This document shows, piece by piece, positions 27,404-35,083 of a DNA stretch of 64,000 nucleotides. The position numbers and the translations under genes are program-made. The notes beneath the pieces were generated by a model. It had not been told where the DNA came from, made no database searches, and worked only from the letters and a program-made list of their open reading frames with translations. Position 1 is the stretch's first letter. Every line of letters begins with the position of its first letter. The stretch spans positions 1-64,000 of the forward strand of contig NZ_VAVZ01000004.1 of NCBI RefSeq assembly GCF_005771525.1, given 5' to 3'. The DNA is from Nesterenkonia salmonea (GTDB lineage Bacteria > Actinomycetota > Actinomycetes > Actinomycetales > Micrococcaceae).

Positions 27404-27505
27404 GGCCGAAATTGTTCCACGCTAAGTTGTACGCCGGCCAGCTTTCCCGATGCGAGCTTCGTCATGAGTCGCCACTTTGGTGAATGACAGGGAAGAATAG
27501 TCTCC

Positions 27506-28813
27506 ATGCTGACTACCACTGATCTTCGTGGCCGCGAATTGGATGTTGCTCAGGCTCTGCCTCGGGCGGAACACGATGTTTCGGCGACTATCGAGACTGT
27601 CACCCCCATTTTGGAACAGGTCCGCACTGGAGGGACCGAAGCTCTGCTAGACCTCTCCGAGCGGTTCGATGGGGTGCGACCAGCTGCTCTGCGCGTCCCC
27701 TCAGAGGTGCTCTCACGCGCGCTGTCTGCGCTGGATCCGGCGGTGCGCAAAGCGCTGGATACCCTCATATTGAGGGCCAGAGAGGTTCATACTGCACAAC
27801 TTCCAGCGGCGTCTCAGGTCTCCCCCGGCCCTGATGCGCGGGTGACCAACAGGTGGGTGCCGGTGCAGCGTGTAGGTTTGTACGTTCCCGGCGGACAGGC
27901 GGTGTACCCCTCGTCTGTGGTGATGAACGCGGTGCCTGCCCAGGTCGCGGGAGTGCCACAGTTGGCGATCGCGTCACCTCCGCAGCGTGATTTCGGCGGA
28001 TGGCCCCACCCAACGATCTTGGCGGCAGCCAAGTTGCTGGAAGTAGACGAGGTCTATGCGGTAGGCGGCGCCCAGGCTGTGGCCATGTTCGCCTATGGCG
28101 CCAAGGACTCTGATGGTGGCGTCGAAGTGCCTCCAGTGTCATTGATTACTGGCCCGGGGAATGTCTACGTGGCGGCGGCCAAACGGGCGGTTCAGGGCAC
28201 TGTCGGAATCGATTCTGAGGCTGGGCCCACTGAAATTATGGTGCTGGCTGACGGGACAGCGCCGGCGAATCTCATAGCAGCGGATCTGGTGTCCCAGGCA
28301 GAACATGATGAGCTTGCCGCTGCGGTACTGGTCACCGACTCACCTGATCTTGCGGAACGTGTGATCACTCAGGTGAGCGAAAAGGCAGCCGCCACAAAAC
28401 ACACAGAGCGTGTCAAGCAATCACTTGCTGGACGCCAGTCAACGGTCCTTCTGGTCGATTCGATGGATGCTGCAGTTGAGATCGCCAATGCTTACGGAGC
28501 CGAGCACTTGGAAATCATGACACATGACGACGACGCTTTCGCTCATCGGATTCACAACGCGGGTGCAGTGTTCCTCGGCGCCTACACGCCTGTTTCCCTG
28601 GGCGACTACTGTGCCGGTTCCAACCACGTGCTGCCTACCGGTGGAGCTTCCAGGTATTCATCTGGATTGAACGTGACGAGTTTCATGCGCTCGCAGCAGG
28701 TGATCCGCTACGGCCGTGAGGGCTTGGCCCAGGTGGCCGACCACGTCACCGCGCTGGCCGAGGCCGAGGACCTGCCCGCACACGGCGACGCGGTGCGGGC
28801 AAGGTACCCCTAG
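27506..28813 (+). CDS. hisD: Histidinol dehydrogenase
   Basis: 435 residues, the usual length. Family motifs: Y-V-P-G-G (about 129), G-G-A-Q-A-V (about 188), I-T-G-P-G-N-V-Y-V-A-A-A-K, D-S-E-A-G-P-T-E-I, S-Q-A-E-H-D, and the zinc/catalytic E-H-L-E-I and G-S-N-H-V-L-P-T motifs. It catalyses the last two steps of histidine biosynthesis (histidinol to histidine). No other his genes are in the window. Its stop overlaps the stop of the convergent cell wall hydrolase gene by 4 bp. Confidence 0.96.
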   Translation: MLTTTDLRGRELDVAQALPRAEHDVSATIETVTPILEQVRTGGTEALLDLSERFDGVRPAALRVPSEVLSRALSALDPAVRKALDTLILRAREVHTAQLPAASQVSPGPDARVTNRWVPVQRVGLYVPGGQAVYPSSVVMNAVPAQVAGVPQLAIASPPQRDFGGWPHPTILAAAKLLEVDEVYAVGGAQAVAMFAYGAKDSDGGVEVPPVSLITGPGNVYVAAAKRAVQGTVGIDSEAGPTEIMVLADGTAPANLIAADLVSQAEHDELAAAVLVTDSPDLAERVITQVSEKAAATKHTERVKQSLAGRQSTVLLVDSMDAAVEIANAYGAEHLEIMTHDDDAFAHRIHNAGAVFLGAYTPVSLGDYCAGSNHVLPTGGASRYSSGLNVTSFMRSQQVIRYGREGLAQVADHVTALAEAEDLPAHGDAVRARYP

Positions 28814-31341
28814 ACGTTCATCACGAAGGTGGTGTTGACCCACCCGACCACGCCGTCGTGCTCGACCTGCAGCCATGATCCTCGCCGTTCGCCGGTGCGC
28901 AGCACCTCGCCGCGAGGAATCTGGGCCAGCTTGTCCGCACTCGAGCTGGGGTCTTCGCGCAGCGGCACTGAGTAAGTGGCCCGCCAATCGCCTGCTGAGG
29001 TGACGGTGGAGCTTGTCTGGGTGCCACCATGAGCGTCAAAGTAGCTGTCTCCCCAGCCACCGGGGTTGCCACTGAGACCCAGACGCTGCGAGCACGCTGG
29101 CCACGCACCCCACCCCTGGCGTTGCCAGAGCTGGTATGCGCGTTCAATCTGTTCCTGCTTCGATGCCTGATGCGGCAGTCCGCTTCCGCCGACCCACCGC
29201 CATGATGACTCAGAGAACTGTAGTCCGCCGTAGTAGCCGTTGCCGGTGTTGATGGACCAGTTTCCTGAGGACTCACACTGAGCCAAACGATCCCAGGCGG
29301 AGCTGTAGGGTCCGCGAGAGCTCTGGGCGTGCTGACCACTTGTTGGACCGGTCCGGCCCGATGAGCTGCCCGACCCGGAACCTGAAGATCCGGAGGATGA
29401 CGAGCCAGAAGAGGACGAACCCGATCCTGAAGATGAGCTGCCCGAGCTTGATGATCCGCTGGAACCTGAGGAACTGCCAGAGCCTGAGGATGAGGACCGG
29501 ACGTCGAGGAAGTCTTCCCACACCCACCCGGTGTTGCCGTTGGTTCGCACCTGGTACCAACCTCCGCGGGAGCTCAGCACCTCAACATTGGTTCCAGCTG
29601 ACAAGGTCCGGGCCACGCTGCTACTCATGCTCGGGCCCGACCTCATGTTCACACCCGATGTCACCCGCGCACCACTGGATGAGGAAGACGAACTGTTCGA
29701 ACCCGACGACGACGAACCAGAAGACGAGCCCGAGGACGAGGAACCCGACGAAGAGGAACTGCCCGAGCCTGAGGACCCGGAACTTGATGAACCTGAACTT
29801 GATGAACCAGAGCTCGAAGAACCAGATGAGACGTTGAGGTACTCACCCCACACCCAACCGGTATTGCCACTGGCTCGCACCCGGTACCAACCACCACGCT
29901 GCTCCAGCACAGTGACGGACGTCCCAGCCGAAAGCACACGATCCACTCGGCCACTCATGCTCGGGCCCGACCTCATGTTCACACCCGAGGTCACCCGCGC
30001 ACCACTGGATGAGGACGACGAACTGTTCGAACCCGAGGAGCTGCTCGCTGGGGAAGAACTGTTGGAGCTTGATGAGCTGTTCGATCCGGAAGAGCCGTTA
30101 GAACCCGATGACGAACCAGAAGAACTAGTGCTCAGGAAGTCCTGCCACACCCAACCGGTATTGCCATTGACTCGCACCTGATACCAGCCACCACGAGAAC
30201 CCAACACATCCACACTGGTCCCAGCCGACAACGAACGCGCCACGTTATTACCCATACTCGGCGCCGAACGCATATTCACCCGCGACGTCACACGAGCCGA
30301 AGAAGAACTCGAACTCGACGACGAACCCGAGGAACTATTCGAACCCGACGAGCCACTCGAACCGGAAGAACCGTTAGAACCCGACGAGCCACTCGAACCA
30401 GAAGAACTAGTGCTCAGGAAGTCCTGCCACACCCAACCGGTATTGCCATTGACTCGCACCTGATACCAGCCACCACGAGTACCCAACACATCCACACTGG
30501 TACCAGCCGACAACGAACGCGCCACGTTATTACCCATACTCGGCGCCGAACGCATATTCACCCGCGACGTCACACGAGCCGAAGAAGAACTCGAACTCGA
30601 CGACGAACCCGAGGAACTATTCGAACCCGACGAGGAAGATCCACCAGCCGGACCAGTGCCCCCGGACCCGGAGGATCCGGAACAGACACTGGGGAGGAAC
30701 ACCCGTGCTGCGGCGGCCCGCATGTCCACTCCGCGTTCGGCCAGGAAAACCTGAGGGTCCAAAGCGGTGCCGGAGTACCAAGCACCCTCCCAGATTTCGA
30801 GATGCAGGTGAGGCGTGCTGCTCACACCGGAGTTGCCCACCAGTCCGATCGTCTGGCCGGCGCGGACTGAATCTCCCACTTGCACATGGGTTGTGCCGCT
30901 CCAAACGTGAAGATACCGGGAGTGGTACGTCTTGCCCCCGATATTGTGCCGGACCATGACATGTCCAGCGCGGCTGGATGTGCCCGTCTGAGTACTGACC
31001 ACCGTGCCTGCTGCTATAGAGCGGAAGGGCGTGCCGTCGGGTGCCACGAGGTCTTGACCCAGGTGGAACGACGATGCCCCTGGGGTCGAGCTGCAGCGTG
31101 GCCCGAATCCACTGCTGTAGGTGAAGGTGCCGGTGAGCGGCTGGACGAACTGCCCAGAACTTCGCGAGGCAGTAATCACGGTCCCCTGGGACAACGACGA
31201 CGATCCTGCGGCCGCTGTGCCCGCCAAGGGCTCAAGCTGCGGAGAATACGGGGCAGCTTCTGCTGCTGCGGCGGTGGTGAACGGCAACGTCAGTCCGGCG
31301 GCTAAAGCGCCAACTGCAGCCGCTGGTAGTTTTTTCGGCAC
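28810..31341 (-). CDS. Multidomain cell wall hydrolase: M23 peptidase, SH3 repeats, Rpf transglycosylase
   Basis: 843 residues, exported. The order is: signal peptide (about 1-28); M23/LytM endopeptidase (about 80-205) with H-L-G-Q-D and H-L-H-L-E-I zinc motifs; SH3b domains at about 255-312, 349-406, 450-505 and 560-615; an Rpf-type transglycosylase domain (about 680-765) with the catalytic Glu in C-E-S-S-G-N-W; and a final SH3-like domain (about 780-843). The parts are joined by Ser/Gly linkers. It should cut both the peptide and glycan parts of peptidoglycan, as in growth or resuscitation. It has a long untranslated leader. Confidence 0.9.
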   Translation of the reverse strand: MPKKLPAAAVGALAAGLTLPFTTAAAAEAAPYSPQLEPLAGTAAAGSSSLSQGTVITASRSSGQFVQPLTGTFTYSSGFGPRCSSTPGASSFHLGQDLVAPDGTPFRSIAAGTVVSTQTGTSSRAGHVMVRHNIGGKTYHSRYLHVWSGTTHVQVGDSVRAGQTIGLVGNSGVSSTPHLHLEIWEGAWYSGTALDPQVFLAERGVDMRAAAARVFLPSVCSGSSGSGGTGPAGGSSSSGSNSSSGSSSSSSSSSARVTSRVNMRSAPSMGNNVARSLSAGTSVDVLGTRGGWYQVRVNGNTGWVWQDFLSTSSSGSSGSSGSNGSSGSSGSSGSNSSSGSSSSSSSSSARVTSRVNMRSAPSMGNNVARSLSAGTSVDVLGSRGGWYQVRVNGNTGWVWQDFLSTSSSGSSSGSNGSSGSNSSSSSNSSSPASSSSGSNSSSSSSSGARVTSGVNMRSGPSMSGRVDRVLSAGTSVTVLEQRGGWYRVRASGNTGWVWGEYLNVSSGSSSSGSSSSGSSSSGSSGSGSSSSSGSSSSGSSSGSSSSGSNSSSSSSSGARVTSGVNMRSGPSMSSSVARTLSAGTNVEVLSSRGGWYQVRTNGNTGWVWEDFLDVRSSSSGSGSSSGSSGSSSSGSSSSGSGSSSSGSSSSGSSGSGSGSSSGRTGPTSGQHAQSSRGPYSSAWDRLAQCESSGNWSINTGNGYYGGLQFSESSWRWVGGSGLPHQASKQEQIERAYQLWQRQGWGAWPACSQRLGLSGNPGGWGDSYFDAHGGTQTSSTVTSAGDWRATYSVPLREDPSSSADKLAQIPRGEVLRTGERRGSWLQVEHDGVVGWVNTTFVMNV
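30113..30352. repeat. Intragenic direct repeat, copy A (SH3 domain 2)
   Basis: About 240 bp within the cell wall hydrolase gene, matching copy B (30395-30634) at an exact offset of 282 bp (94 codons) with only two mismatches by eye. One of the changes makes Ser versus Thr in the protein. The later SH3 units of the same gene are clearly diverged at the DNA level, so this pair points to a recent tandem duplication or gene conversion. Confidence 0.9.
30395..30634. repeat. Intragenic direct repeat, copy B (SH3 domain 1)
   Basis: Partner of copy A, encoding the first SH3b domain and its Ser-rich linker. Between the copies (30353-30394) lies a short Ser/Gly-coding linker whose repeats (Gly-Ser codons) could also promote slippage. 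The number of SH3 units may vary between strains. Confidence 0.9.
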
Positions 31342-31835
31342 GGGTCAATCCTCACTAGTCGAATGCCACGACTCCTTGCGCACATCACCTGGGCGGTGAC
31401 GCGTGTGGGACTGTCCGGGGCCGCCCACAAGTGGGGAAGCATGCGATGGGAAATCTGAGCGAATCCCCCGGTCAGCTCGCGCCCAGGTTAACAAGTTGGT
31501 TACGACCCACGGCAGGGCGGCGTTCGACCGGAGGTTGAAGCTGTGCTCAACCTGTGACCCTTCGAATCTTGCTGGCGACGGAGGAACCTGCGTCTGTGAG
31601 GTCAGGGGGCAGGACAGGATGAACGGCGCGATGCCACTACCGCAGGACACCTTCCGAACGCTGCACTGCCCCCTGAGTTAGCTACTCTTTCAGCGATTAC
31701 TCAGGGTTTGACTGCACCAACGCCGAGGGACACACATTGTGATCAGACCGTTACCCGGCTGAGCCCAAAAATTCATAGGAAACGTCCAGCCGTTATGGGG
31801 TGTTCCGTTCAGAATGATGAGTACCTTGGATAGTG
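31342..31835 (-). other. Long leader region of the cell wall hydrolase gene, possible structured RNA
   Basis: About 490 bp without a convincing gene. An 11-bp inverted repeat, TCAGGGGGCAG (31602-31612) and its complement (31666-31676), is separated by 53 bp. Rpf-type genes of actinobacteria often carry a c-di-AMP riboswitch in such leaders. I see AGCTGACC- and AGCTAACTC-like pieces but not a full canonical core, so the class remains open. Small open frames here have no coding features that I trust. Confidence 0.35.
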
Positions 31836-31918
31836 CCTCTTCAAGGTGCGAGTGATTCAAGCTCCCCGGCTGGCCATTATGCGTCCCCCTCACGCGGCCA
31901 CCGGGGAGCTTTCTCGTG
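31836..31918 (+). ncRNA. Putative small RNA, copy 1
   Basis: About 82 nt, nearly identical to copy 2 (32847-32928). After a 5' part (CAAGGTGCGAGTGATTC) comes a long hairpin: AAGCTCCCCGG (31859-31869) pairs perfectly with 31901-31911, TGGCC (31871-31875) with GGCCA (31896-31900), and GCGT (31881-31884) with ACGC (31892-31895), leaving a C-rich loop CCCCCTC; TTTCTCGT follows. A weak promoter (GTGTTC 31800-31805, TACCTT 31822-31827) lies upstream. It ends about 16 bp before the S4 gene, so it could also be a leader attenuator of that gene. The C-rich loop recalls the 6C RNA, but 6C has two such hairpins. Confidence 0.55.
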
Positions 31919-31933
31919 TCTACACTGGTCAAC

Positions 31934-32320
31934 ATGACAGATGCAGCGCTATCGCCTGTGCGCGTGGACGCATGGCTGTGGTCTGTTCGGATGTTCAAAA
32001 CACGTTCTGCAGCAACGGACGCATGCCGTGCAGGGAAGGTCAAAATCGGAGGAGACCCGGTCAAGCCCTCACTGAAAATCAGTCCCGGCACACGGGTGAG
32101 CATCAGTAGGCCCGGCCATGTAGTGATTCTGGAAGTGGTATACACCCACGCCAAGCGTGTAGGGGCCCCAGTCGCGCAGATGGCTTATCGGGATCTTTCC
32201 CCCGAGCAGATTAAGCCCCGTGACGTTGGTCTTCCGATGCGCGAACGCGGGGCCGGTCGGCCCACCAAACGGGAACGCCGTCAACTGGAGCAGCTGCGCG
32301 GTTACACGAAGAATGAGTGA
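31934..32320 (+). CDS. S4-domain RNA-binding protein (Hsp15/HslR-like)
   Basis: 128 residues. An N-terminal S4 domain (about 10-60) has R-V-D-A-W-L-W-S-V-R-M-F-K-T-R-S-A-A and G-K-V-K-I-G-G, as in Hsp15, which binds nascent-chain-blocked 50S subunits. A basic C-terminal tail (about 95-128) is rich in Arg/Lys. ATG 31934. Whether it handles stalled ribosomes or other RNA is not shown. The putative small RNA ends just upstream, and a Rieske-type gene follows 15 bp downstream. Confidence 0.85.
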   Translation: MTDAALSPVRVDAWLWSVRMFKTRSAATDACRAGKVKIGGDPVKPSLKISPGTRVSISRPGHVVILEVVYTHAKRVGAPVAQMAYRDLSPEQIKPRDVGLPMRERGAGRPTKRERRQLEQLRGYTKNE

Positions 32321-32335
32321 CGCTAGGCTAGTGAT

Positions 32336-32683
32336 ATGACACATCGCGTAAATCTCGGCCCAGCTGACCAGCTTCCCGAGCGCCAGGTAATGCAGGTGAC
32401 AGCCAAAAAGGCTGGCACTAAGGGAGACATCGCCGTAGTCCACGCCGAAGATGGCGGGTTCTACGCGGTTGACGATGAGTGTTCCCACGAGGCCGTTTCT
32501 CTCTCCGAAGGTTTTGTCGAGGACGAGACGCTCGAATGCCCCATGCACGGTGCCGCTTTCTGTTTGCGGACCGGAGCAGCGGAGACTCCGCCAGCATTCG
32601 AGCCCATTAAGACTCATTTGGTCACTGTGGAGGATGGAGACCTCGTTCTTCACCCAGGCGTCCCCCACCCTGAGGCTGAATAG
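32336..32683 (+). CDS. Rieske [2Fe-2S] ferredoxin-type protein
   Basis: 115 residues forming one Rieske domain. The cluster ligands are visible as a C-S-H (about 49-51) and a C-P-M-H (about 68-71) box. It is the size of the stand-alone ferredoxin of dioxygenase or nitrite-reductase type systems (NirD/BphF-like), but no partner oxygenase is nearby. Cytoplasmic. ATG 32336, 15 bp after the S4 gene, so probably cotranscribed with it. Confidence 0.88.
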   Translation: MTHRVNLGPADQLPERQVMQVTAKKAGTKGDIAVVHAEDGGFYAVDDECSHEAVSLSEGFVEDETLECPMHGAAFCLRTGAAETPPAFEPIKTHLVTVEDGDLVLHPGVPHPEAE

Positions 32684-32846
32684 TCTTTCCAGTGCTGGGG
32701 TCCAGTGACGGTGAGCATCAGTTCACGAGCTGGTAAGACCCAGTTCACCGGTTGTTGAACCTCGCAGAGACCTTGCGAGAAACTCACAGATAATGTTCAG
32801 CAAATACCGGGTTGTTCTCCAAGGTAGGTCCCTATATTAGGTACTA

Positions 32847-32928
32847 CCTCATCAAGGTGCGAGTGATTCAAGCTCCCCGGTTGGCCATTATGCGTCCCCT
32901 CACGCGGCCACCCGGGGAGCTTTCTCAT
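32847..32928 (+). ncRNA. Putative small RNA, copy 2
   Basis: Second copy of the 82-nt element. The hairpin is kept: AAGCTCCCCGG (32870-32880) pairs with 32912-32922, TGGCC (32882-32886) with 32906-32910, and GCGT (32892-32895) with 32902-32905, with loop CCCCTC and TTTCTC following. A promoter is visible upstream: TTGTTC (32812-32817) and TATTAG (32835-32840), 17 bases apart, placing transcription start close to 32847. Here no gene follows in the same direction; the end of the convergent membrane-protein gene is 10 bp away, so this copy should act as a free RNA or terminator. The rest of 32684-32811 holds nothing I recognise. Confidence 0.6.
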
Positions 32929-32937
32929 GTCCGGGCT

Positions 32938-33729
32938 TTAGGCGGGGGTCGCCCTGCGAATCACTCCGTAGTTGAGTCCCGCCAACCCGACGGCGAGAAT
33001 CGCTAACCACCCGGTTAATGAAAGAGCGCTTTGCTGCATGATCCACTCCCAGATGACGGGCCACCCATCATTCTGAAAAATGAGCATTGTCCCGGCAAGG
33101 CCCACGACGGCGAGTCCCAGGATAATCACCCATAGGGTGAACAAACCGGCCCGGAGATACAAGATCGCCCAAAAGAAGCCCACCATCATGAGTACCAGGC
33201 AGAGTGTTGCGGCCAACGCTCCGGCAGCCACGATCCCTCCCGAACCCTGAGTGAGGTAGGGCAGGTTGAAGGTGTAGAAGTGCATGCCGAATCCGTCGGT
33301 CACCCGTTCGATCCATGCTGCCAGTATGAATGCTGCGCCGAAAGCCACCGAGACTAATCCGAATGCCAGAATCACACCCAGCATGAAGGTCCGCCGGCTA
33401 TAACTCAGCGCCATCGAAAAGGGAAAGGTGTGCGAGGCGGAATAGGCTGCCACAAAAACCAATGCCCATAGCGGAGCCTGCGCGGCTCCGGTGAACATGG
33501 GCTCGCCTGACGAGTCGCCGGACCCCTGCATAGTGTGAATCCACCACCCAATACCCACGGCGATCAGCCATGCGGCAAAGAAAACCGAAAGTGGCACACC
33601 GATGAGTGTGACCGCCGGTGAAAACTGAAGCCTCACGGCCGAAGGGACCCGGGCAAACGCGGATCGCTTCCCGCGGTGGGGTTCCTGAGGCTGGAGGGTT
33701 CGATCAGTGCGTCCCGTTGGGGTTGTCAT
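32938..33729 (-). CDS. ABC transporter membrane subunit of a YtrA-type operon
   Basis: 263 residues with about six hydrophobic helices (about 36-60, 80-105, 118-145, 170-200, 205-225, 235-255) after a polar N-terminus. It has no motif that identifies a substrate. The start overlaps the stop of the ABC ATPase gene by 4 bp (ATGA), so it should be the permease partner of that ATPase. Operons gntR(ytrA)-ATPase-permease respond to cell-envelope antibiotics in several Gram-positives; that role here is inference. Confidence 0.75.
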   Translation of the reverse strand: MTTPTGRTDRTLQPQEPHRGKRSAFARVPSAVRLQFSPAVTLIGVPLSVFFAAWLIAVGIGWWIHTMQGSGDSSGEPMFTGAAQAPLWALVFVAAYSASHTFPFSMALSYSRRTFMLGVILAFGLVSVAFGAAFILAAWIERVTDGFGMHFYTFNLPYLTQGSGGIVAAGALAATLCLVLMMVGFFWAILYLRAGLFTLWVIILGLAVVGLAGTMLIFQNDGWPVIWEWIMQQSALSLTGWLAILAVGLAGLNYGVIRRATPA

Positions 33730-34664
33730 TTTTCTCCCTCCCCATGGCCATGGTTGCTGTCATTGAGGTCTCGGGCAGCTGACTGACGCGTCGTGAGGCG
33801 CACGATCAACTGCTGTAAAGAGACCGGCTGCAGGTCAAGGTCCAGGTCGCGGACGCGCTGGTGCTCCTGTTCACTGAGCCGACCCAAAACAGTGGTGCGA
33901 GTGATCCTGCCCATACTCTCCTGGTTCAGCACTTCACGCCCTGCGGTGACTTCGGCAACAGCGTCGGATCGTCCCACTAACGTGACGGCACGATCACGCA
34001 GGTCCTCCACCGGTTCATCAAGCAGCACCCGGCCGCTGTCGATCAGCACCACGTTTTCAATCAGGTGCGCAATCTCATCGATGAGATGCGAGGACAGCAC
34101 CACGGTGCGGGGATGCTCGGAGTAATCTTCCAGGAGCCGGTCATAGAACAGCTGCCGAGCCACGGCATCCAACCCCATGTACGGTTCATCGAAGAAAGTC
34201 ACTTCAGCACGGGCAGCCAGCCCAATAATCACGGCCACAGCTGACTTCTGACCCCGGGACATCTTTTTGACCTTCGTCTTCTCTGGGACCCTGAAGTCGC
34301 GAATAAGCCGGTTGGCAAATTTCCAGTCCCAGTTCTCATAGGCAAGCGAAGCTGCCTTGAACGCGTGTTTTGCCTGGGCGTCGTCGGGATACCGCTGATC
34401 CTCTCGGACAAAACACATCATCGGCAGCACTTGTTCGTTCTCATGCGGGGTGTGACCCAGCACTCTGACCTGTCCCTCGGTGGGCCAGTCCTGGGCCGCA
34501 ATGATCGACATCAGGGTCGTCTTGCCCGCACCATTGCGTCCCAATAGTCCGTGGATCTGATCCTTGGCGAACCTGACCGTGACTCCATCCAATGCAGTGG
34601 TGTTGCGATACCGACGACTGAGGCCGGCGACCTCTATAGCAGCTGGGGCGGTGTTGACGCTCAT
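33726..34664 (-). CDS. ABC transporter ATP-binding protein
   Basis: 312 residues. Walker A is G-R-N-G-A-G-K-T-T (about 43-51), the signature is M-S-R-G-Q-K-S (a variant of LSGGQ, about 136-142), Walker B is V-T-F-F-D-E-P (about 155-161), and there is a switch His in S-S-H-L. The C-terminal 90 residues are an extension seen in exporter-type ATPases. The middle gene of the gntR-ATPase-permease operon, overlapping both neighbours by 4 bp. Confidence 0.9.
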   Translation of the reverse strand: MSVNTAPAAIEVAGLSRRYRNTTALDGVTVRFAKDQIHGLLGRNGAGKTTLMSIIAAQDWPTEGQVRVLGHTPHENEQVLPMMCFVREDQRYPDDAQAKHAFKAASLAYENWDWKFANRLIRDFRVPEKTKVKKMSRGQKSAVAVIIGLAARAEVTFFDEPYMGLDAVARQLFYDRLLEDYSEHPRTVVLSSHLIDEIAHLIENVVLIDSGRVLLDEPVEDLRDRAVTLVGRSDAVAEVTAGREVLNQESMGRITRTTVLGRLSEQEHQRVRDLDLDLQPVSLQQLIVRLTTRQSAARDLNDSNHGHGEGEK

Positions 34665-35083
34665 CGGCTTTCTCCTCTCACTTCATGATTCGGTGTCTGC
34701 TGCGCCCGCTCACGCAACAGATCAATGACGGTGTCCACCGAAAGCCCAATATTCTGAGCTTCGGCAAGCATCGGTGTGAGGTAGTGGTCGGCGAAGCTCA
34801 GCTTCCGCTCTGTCCGCAGCCTTTCGGCGGCGCCTTCCGCGACGAACATGCCGAGTCCGCGGCGTTTGATGAGTATTTCCCGGTCCACCAGAAGGTTGAT
34901 GCCTTTGGCTGCCGTCGCTGGGTTAATGCGGTGGAATGCCGCTAGCTCGTTGGTCGAGGGAGCACGCTCGCCTTCAGCCAAAGAACCATCCAGCACAGAT
35001 GCCTCGATCTCCTCAGCGATCTGCACAAACAGCGGTCGGCCTTCTTCCACGAGGTCACCTCTTTCAGCGGTTACAGGAACCAT
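34661..35083 (-). CDS. GntR-family regulator, YtrA subfamily
   Basis: 140 residues. A winged helix (about 14-85) carries P-L-F-V-Q-I-A-E-E-I, S-T-N-E-L-A and G-M-F-V; only a short helical C-terminal part follows, which marks the YtrA subfamily. Such proteins repress their own operon with an ABC transporter. A matching inverted repeat lies 29-54 bp upstream of the GTG/ATG start. Confidence 0.9.
   Translation of the reverse strand: MVPVTAERGDLVEEGRPLFVQIAEEIEASVLDGSLAEGERAPSTNELAAFHRINPATAAKGINLLVDREILIKRRGLGMFVAEGAAERLRTERKLSFADHYLTPMLAEAQNIGLSVDTVIDLLRERAQQTPNHEVRGESR

Follow-up and report, generated by a model that had tools for sequence, protein, structure and literature searches.

Sibling small RNAs of Nesterenkonia and other Micrococcaceae with a conserved 5′ module predicted to pair with solute-binding protein mRNAs

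Analysis of a 64,000-nt stretch of the Nesterenkonia salmonea genome (contig NZ_VAVZ01000004.1, positions 1 to 64,000; hereafter the window) revealed two closely similar RNA elements of an apparently uncatalogued RNA family that is widespread in the Micrococcaceae, a family of soil and skin bacteria. With a probability of roughly 0.8, we read them as trans-acting, response-regulator-controlled sibling small RNAs (sRNAs) that would repress nutrient uptake by pairing with the mRNAs of ABC-importer solute-binding proteins (SBPs). This reading draws on sequence evidence, namely a conserved anatomy, covariation, a shared promoter layout and an enrichment of complementary sites at SBP gene starts. 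The family offers a testable regulon: it is conserved across many genera, its pairing module is sharply defined, sRNAs and targets both vary naturally, and there is a candidate box for the regulator. To our knowledge, few base-pairing sRNAs with predicted regulons have been described in Actinobacteria.

Two sibling RNA genes with a common fold

By BLAST, the N. salmonea genome holds only these two copies, which are 94% identical over 85 nt and each about 87 nt long. An earlier note on this DNA had reported a duplicated element of about 82 nt; the duplication stands and the length is revised upwards.

31835..31921, + strand: sRNA copy 1, whole inferred transcript (BLAST and covariance-model match; fold z −4.98)
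31835..31858, + strand: copy 1 5′ antisense module GCCUCUUCAAGGUGCGAGUGAUUC (near-invariant over 85 copies; complementary to SBP start regions)
31859..31911, + strand: copy 1 GC-rich terminator-like hairpin, apical GCGU-CCCCCUC-ACGC (covariation over 83 distinct sequences)
32846..32932, + strand: sRNA copy 2, whole inferred transcript (BLAST and covariance-model match; fold z −4.75)
32846..32869, + strand: copy 2 5′ antisense module ACCUCAUCAAGGUGCGAGUGAUUC (85-copy conservation; SBP-leader pairing)
32870..32922, + strand: copy 2 terminator-like hairpin, apical GCGU-CCCCUC-ACGC, loop 32896-32901 (fold and covariation)

The predicted minimum free energies are −39.5 kcal/mol for copy 1 and −38.5 kcal/mol for copy 2, and equal stability was reached in 0 of 200 shuffles. 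Both copies fold as previously drawn, into a stem of 11 bp + 5 bp + 4 bp with a C-rich loop that reads CCCCCTC in copy 1 (31885-31891) and CCCCTC in copy 2; a weak U tract lies 3′ of the copy 1 hairpin. All 85 compared copies keep a purine at the position of 31835 (G) and 32846 (A), and we therefore placed the start there, one base 5′ of the one proposed in the earlier note. The note's description of the flanks as different proved inexact, promoter positions 5′ of both copies being conserved.

Copy 2 has no co-directed downstream gene, the adjoining gene at 32938-33729 being on the − strand, and the start, module and covarying hairpin are common to 85 distinct copies from the genus; both observations bear out the earlier view, the second in favour of a transcript of its own. 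The promoter layout is kept in nearly all 85 copies, across more than one genomic setting. Conservation of this kind supports the interpretation of both elements as RNA genes with their own promoters.

A near-invariant 5′ module and a covarying hairpin

The anatomy was read from the 85 distinct Nesterenkonia copies and from 215 alignable rows of 239 core matches (the 239 include at least two chance matches, L002 and L129, both outside the 215 rows). It begins with a purine at +1 and the 5′ module RCCUC(A/U)U(C/G)AAGGUGCGAGUGAU, followed by the hairpin. The module, about 22 nt long, is the best-conserved part and stays near-invariant while the stems change. Within it, a small 5′ hairpin could form between ACCU and AGGU, with a loop of 3 to 6 nt; covariation leaves this hairpin unproved because its four pairs hardly vary.

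Covariation gives strong support to the main hairpin: among 83 distinct sequences, in an alignment fitted to the model, which favours pairing, 96.7% of cells are paired versus 77% in shuffles, and 296 cells show double changes versus 88 in shuffles. Sliding the partner by one to three columns left 27-55% paired.

Apical loops were classed by the rule of our script in 229 core matches, the chance match L002 included. At least four consecutive C occur in 144 of them. CCTCC was scored in 16, comprising two Nesterenkonia tail matches and 14 cases of CCTCCTT in the loop or upper stem, outside Nesterenkonia, and neither type was scored in 69, among them 13 Nesterenkonia CCC loops and, in other genera, many hairpins resembling plain terminators. 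Within Nesterenkonia, the loop letters are retained and the stem letters vary. A sibling class (L136, L142, L180 and similar) carries UUUCACCUCCUU in the top of the hairpin, which we take to match the anti-Shine-Dalgarno sequence of 16S rRNA. The module unit AAGGUGCGAGUGAUG is directly duplicated in some copies of genus g4, probably Citricoccus, and a Micrococcus copy (L131) has a second module in altered form. The duplicated-module copies are:

L077, 1291-1382, − strand
L079, 1080-1171, − strand
L080, about 1780-1889, + strand
L196, from a genome named Citricoccus

Promoter and candidate regulator box

A direct repeat, a promoter-proximal half-site and a −10 box precede each copy.

31773..31790, + strand: copy 1 direct repeat TCATAGG-AAAC-GTCCAGC, putative OmpR/PhoB-family box (85-copy and 215-copy conservation)
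31808..31814, + strand: copy 1 promoter-proximal half-site TTCAGAA (close to the repeat's −26 position)
31822-31827, + strand: copy 1 −10 box TACCTT (conserved TANNNT)
32784..32801, + strand: copy 2 direct repeat TCACAGA-TAAT-GTTCAGC, putative response-regulator box (85-copy and 215-copy conservation)
32819..32824, + strand: copy 2 promoter-proximal half-site CCAAGG (85-copy and 215-copy conservation)
32833-32838, + strand: copy 2 −10 box TATATT (conserved TANNNT)

TANNNT lies at −13 to −8, 7 nt ahead of the inferred first base, and no conserved −35 box was found in the 85 Nesterenkonia copies or the 215 rows. CAG-type half-sites recur every 11 bp, at −59, −48, −37 (weak) and −26, with (T/C)CAAG-like letters conserved at −27 to −23. 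The consensus of the upstream pair is approximately TCnCAGG-N4-TTCCAG, and in copy 1, whose first half-site is TCATAGG, the repeat consists of two 7-bp half-sites with a 4-bp spacer. The same geometry is found in the M. tuberculosis PhoP site, given as TCACAGC-N4-TCACAGC in PMC4832192 (also PMC9019756). MtrA motifs, which have a GTnAC-like core in PMC6265350 and PMC5650626, fit the repeat less well by eye than the PhoP box. The period of the repeat and its PhoP-like layout point to an OmpR/PhoB-family response regulator as the likely controller of the sRNAs, the box being judged solely by likeness.

A search for the box in the N. salmonea genome returned 51 matches versus 38 for the control, which is barely higher. 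Scored by position weights, the collected loci yielded a single weak match (9.5; the median of known copies is 50.7). Among the 85 known copies, 4 fall below 0 on the promoter matrix, so the scan misses shifted or weak boxes.

Distribution of the RNA family

Rfam 15 gave no family in the whole window at the gathering score. A lax scan (E ≤ 10) of 31500-33200 produced two implausible matches, both off the sRNAs, and a scan of 20 loci from relatives yielded two SAM-IV riboswitches only, away from the sRNAs. Literature searches (by module sequence, small RNAs of Micrococcaceae or Nesterenkonia, and actinobacterial sRNAs with SBPs) found no description of the family in sources that barely cover subscription journals; the Micrococcaceae and Arthrobacter small-RNA literature retrieved concerned Ms1 RNA.

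Within Nesterenkonia, 29 of 30 genomes have BLAST matches, 2 to 6 each and N. salmonea included, and one (G017) has none. The earlier note had suggested a covariance-model search of the genome and its relatives; such a search matches both copies and places the family widely in the Micrococcaceae. The model (R1, built from 54 copies) matches 128 of 197 Micrococcaceae genomes in 29 of 32 genera at E ≤ 0.01, with 1-10 matches per genome, a set with many single weak matches that are individually untrustworthy; at E ≤ 1e-5 it matches 73 of the 197, from 14 genera. In an order-level sample of 297 genomes, seven match at E ≤ 0.001, six within the Micrococcaceae; the seventh (G405, L096), in which the 5′ core is missing, is probably a chance match.

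An exact 5′-pattern search of named genomes found at least 118 stretches, and among the 80 listed all but one are Micrococcaceae by name. Genera among the matches listed include Arthrobacter, Glutamicibacter, Paeniglutamicibacter, Zhihengliuella, Kocuria, Micrococcus, Citricoccus, Yaniella and others; the module is invariant in these records because the search pattern itself fixed it. One exact module match in an Ignavibacteria MAG (L129) was rejected, since it lacks the promoter and purine start, and a phage-borne element was set aside, with the exact pattern in 0 viral contigs. A strict hairpin pattern matched 3 of 295 genomes across the family, all Nesterenkonia.

Module complementarity at SBP gene starts in Nesterenkonia

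Near-complements of the module were sought in 30 Nesterenkonia genomes, and 20 sites were chosen from the matches listed. Eight coincide with a likely start or lie shortly ahead of one (L295-L302), and the remaining 12 (L303-L314) fall within ORFs, run antisense to them or lack a convincing start. Three of the eight start sites belong to one SBP_bac_8/SBP_bac_1 lipoprotein gene in three genomes. In this leader, the 3′ end of GATCACTCGCACTTTGATGAG lies 16-17 nt ahead of the ATG, and the predicted duplex with the copy 2 module has 21 pairs (−37.1 kcal/mol for L315, −36.9 kcal/mol for L317). In some orthologs and paralogs the site is altered or split, for example CACTCGTACC...TTGATGAGGA (L320 and L321, −28.8 kcal/mol) and CTCGC..TGATGAGA (e.g., L339, L342 and L329, about −23.5 kcal/mol). 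Other ortholog or paralog leaders show nothing notable, and the matchless rows of the 30-locus leader table are partly uninformative because the strand was misread for some (e.g., L318 and L324); L325 and L327 are unread.

Among the chosen sites without a convincing start, L311 resembles a further sRNA copy and L308 opens only 17 codons. At L297, L298 and L299, from three Nesterenkonia genomes, AATCACTCGCACCAG stands directly 3′ of the ATG of a gene of about 215-238 codons whose product begins MNHSH and which gave one weak Pfam match, in the L298 copy; this site may reflect the conserved N-terminus and not an RNA target. A recurring match with three mismatches, TGACNCGNACYTTGAAGAG, showed third-position variation and was taken as coding.

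Pairing in N. salmonea and in other genera

No ortholog of the 21-pair target was found in the N. salmonea genome at E ≤ 1e-60, so all 15 of its PF13416 matches were tested, with mononucleotide shuffles and with translation starts guessed from the lipobox and Shine-Dalgarno (SD) sequence. Pairing with the copy 2 module reaches p<0.02 at eight of these start regions (0.3 expected) and is not significant at the other seven; the copy 1 module likewise gives 8 of 15. The mean pairing of the SBP set was reached by 0 of 500 shuffled modules. For comparison, 4 of 92 other N. salmonea genes, taken from the window and from 30 loci, pass (200 shuffles; Fisher p = 7.5e-6 versus the SBP set), and one of these four is itself a binding protein (Peripla_BP_2). 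Another passing control is the hisD start region (window positions 27464-27484, −23.7 kcal/mol), which may be due to chance.

At −20 kcal/mol, the full module finds partners in 8 of 15 start windows versus 17 of 120 comparison windows (p = 0.0086), and the module without CCUC in 5 of 15 versus 0 of 120; the comparison windows come from other parts of the same loci. Part of the pairing signal is generic SD pairing by CCUC. An exact search for ATCACTCGC in the same genome found 33 sites versus 14 for the reversed control. Among 28 non-sRNA sites (three further sites, which had no locus, are outside this number), three are at SBP gene starts (two SBP_bac_1/8 and one SBP_bac_5), another (L367) precedes a 491-codon ORF yet lies inside another ORF, and the remaining ones lie within an ORF, are antisense to one or have no clear start. 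The near-perfect 15-nt complement had 0 forward matches in this genome and 4 reverse matches, two of which are the sRNA copies and two of which have 2 mismatches. A target scan within the 64-kb window gave no persuasive site.

In a second genus (G048; 26 genes found, one without a locus), 9 of 25 leaders pass, and their mean was attained by 0 of 500 shuffles. Its positional control is weaker, with 15 of 25 versus 70 of 200 for the full module (p = 0.0067) and 4 of 25 versus 5 of 200 without CCUC (p = 0.044). In a third genus (G030), 0 of 5 leaders pass at p<0.02 and 69 of 500 shuffles are as good, in a small sample of which one gene is below the Pfam cut-off. Computed complementarity with its controls thus agrees with base-pairing near SBP translation starts except in G030, and supports predicted SBP targeting that is strong in Nesterenkonia, less so in one other genus and absent in the third, small sample.

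Proposed mechanism and alternative explanations

In the mechanism that we propose, an OmpR/PhoB-type response regulator acting at a PhoP-like site would switch on the sibling sRNAs of about 87 nt, each of which would end in its own hairpin terminator and present the constant 5′ module ACCUCAUCAAGGUGCGAGUGAU. In mRNAs that encode solute-binding lipoproteins of ABC importers, the module would pair with the leader or the first codons. By covering or abutting the SD sequence or start codon, this pairing would reduce SBP translation, and the siblings together would turn nutrient uptake down. Cofolding of both copies with four leaders (three from N. salmonea and one from G018) left the terminator hairpin intact and the module paired with the leaders, at a gain of −13 to −26 kcal/mol. 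Since the best sites cover or adjoin the SD sequence or first codons, a translation block would be the most likely effect. Transcription, the identity of the regulator, a repressive effect and any role for the C-rich loop are inferred.

The earlier note had anticipated translational control, through pairing of the C-rich loop with ribosome sites. Control of translation finds support by way of the 5′ module; the loop shows no excess at SBP starts (p = 0.96 and 1). That several genera retain the C-rich loop suggests a second function, and the loop may have targets of its own. A broader reading, which we hold tentatively and at less than even odds, is a Micrococcaceae-wide two-component RNA regulon that would combine a constant antisense module silencing SBPs as a class with apical loops that can be exchanged (poly-C, the anti-SD-like CCUCCUU or neither), giving each sibling a second target set.

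The division of labour could also be reversed, with the module mainly a protein-binding tag (for an RNA chaperone or a ribosome-linked protein) and the variable loops pairing with SD sequences. The runs of at least four C in 144 of 229 core matches, the 14 CCTCCTT cases outside Nesterenkonia, the retention of loop letters over varying stems and the doubling of the module in some copies would suit this reading; we consider it unlikely, since module complementarity concentrates at SBP starts, where the loop is without excess, and the loops of 69 of the 229 core matches are of neither type. Somewhat less probable still is that the sRNAs pair with the same leaders but activate or stabilise the mRNAs. 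Some sites are upstream of the SD sequence and pairing there could open leader structure, yet the best sites (L315, L385, L384 and L369) reach or overlap the SD sequence or first codons, a position linked to repression for AbcR1/2 in PMC8844928.

We find it very improbable that the elements are mere intrinsic terminators or a dispersed repeat with no regulatory function, as the short U-rich stretch 3′ of the hairpin and the numerous copies might suggest. A terminator has no need of the conserved promoter positions, start and 22-nt module, the stems differ yet keep pairing, and the exact module is absent from viral contigs. The earlier note had raised the case of an element found only as a terminator of upstream genes, but copy 1 follows no co-directed Pfam-supported gene. 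Least credible of all is a module that encodes a short leader peptide or ribosome-stalling uORF, with AAGG as SD sequence and a GUG or AUG start: AAGGUGCGAGUGAUG does have SD-like and start-like elements at plausible spacing, but among 40 examples inspected the GTG and ATG frames end at 2 to >90 codons, with no shared reading frame or common peptide.

Comparison with known systems

AbcR1 and AbcR2 are tandem homologous sRNAs that pair near the ribosome-binding site of SBP mRNAs and lower translation, according to PMC8844928, which also describes two 8-nt anti-SD motifs (CUCCUCCC and UUCCCCUC) and an interaction with Hfq. The present sRNAs resemble this pair (alpha-r15, Rhizobiales) as siblings with predicted pairing at ABC SBP-mRNA starts, and differ in their 5′-terminal module of about 22 nt, their actinobacterial hosts and their response-regulator-like promoter; the Rfam scan gave no AbcR match in the window. 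The five LhrC sRNAs of Listeria (LhrC1-5), according to PMC5880928, are multicopy, activated by LisR and lower oppA, and have CU-rich single-stranded regions, including the terminator loop. Multicopy siblings are common to both, and response-regulator control is a candidate parallel, but LhrC acts by its CU-rich regions, whereas our sRNAs have a mixed-sequence 5′ module and a C-rich loop unmatched to the SBP targets. The several near-identical copies per genome that mark LhrC and the streptococcal csRNAs are seen here as well, with 2 in N. salmonea, up to 6 in Nesterenkonia and 10 in the family.

GcvB of enterobacteria pairs with many ABC SBP mRNAs through one conserved single-stranded region, and is a single-copy, Hfq-dependent, GcvA-controlled RNA of about 200 nt. 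The streptococcal csRNAs (CiaRH) are several siblings of about 90 nt, with an OmpR/PhoB-family regulator and an 11-bp direct repeat; their host phylum and targets differ from those of the Micrococcaceae sRNAs. The 6C RNA (B11) of Actinobacteria, GC-rich Gram-positives, has C-rich hairpin loops, arranged as two stem-loops with at least 6 C per loop, whereas each copy here has one C-rich hairpin with 5 or 4 consecutive C. The scan of the window returned no Rfam match for GcvB, the csRNAs or 6C, which, with the single C-rich hairpin, agrees with the earlier judgement that the layout is unlike 6C; 6C is presumably among the 4227 Rfam families, and AbcR and GcvB presumably in Rfam too. By analogy, the mode of action would be like that of AbcR, LhrC or GcvB, and we claim no homology. 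If our reading is true, the AbcR/GcvB/LhrC pattern of separate sRNAs shutting ABC uptake would extend to another lineage, probably by convergence.

Genomic neighbourhood

28810-31341, − strand: Peptidase_M23/SH3/transglycosylase gene (Pfam), upstream of copy 1 and divergent
31403-31681, + strand: mechanically called ORF of 92 aa, upstream of copy 1
31934..32320, + strand: S4-domain protein gene between the copies (Pfam PF01479; syntenic, no part claimed in the mechanism)
32336..32683, + strand: Rieske protein gene between the copies (Pfam PF00355; syntenic only)

The order sRNA-S4-Rieske-sRNA recurs at Nesterenkonia loci, and in other genera the S4 gene, with or without hisD, stands beside the sRNA in some loci. 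Copy 1 is not the terminator of the gene at 28810-31341, because that gene runs away from it. Its product of 843 aa has a Peptidase_M23 domain, an Rpf-like transglycosylase domain and several SH3 domains, which are set on linkers rich in serine and glycine. An imperfect inverted repeat (31602-31617 and 31661-31676; 16-nt arms, 88%, 43 nt apart), without an Rfam match at the gathering score, lies 5′ of this divergent gene. Beyond copy 2, positions 33726-35083 (− strand) hold a GntR regulator gene, then an ABC ATPase and then a membrane-like protein without a Pfam match, a set that we take to be a YtrA-like arrangement.
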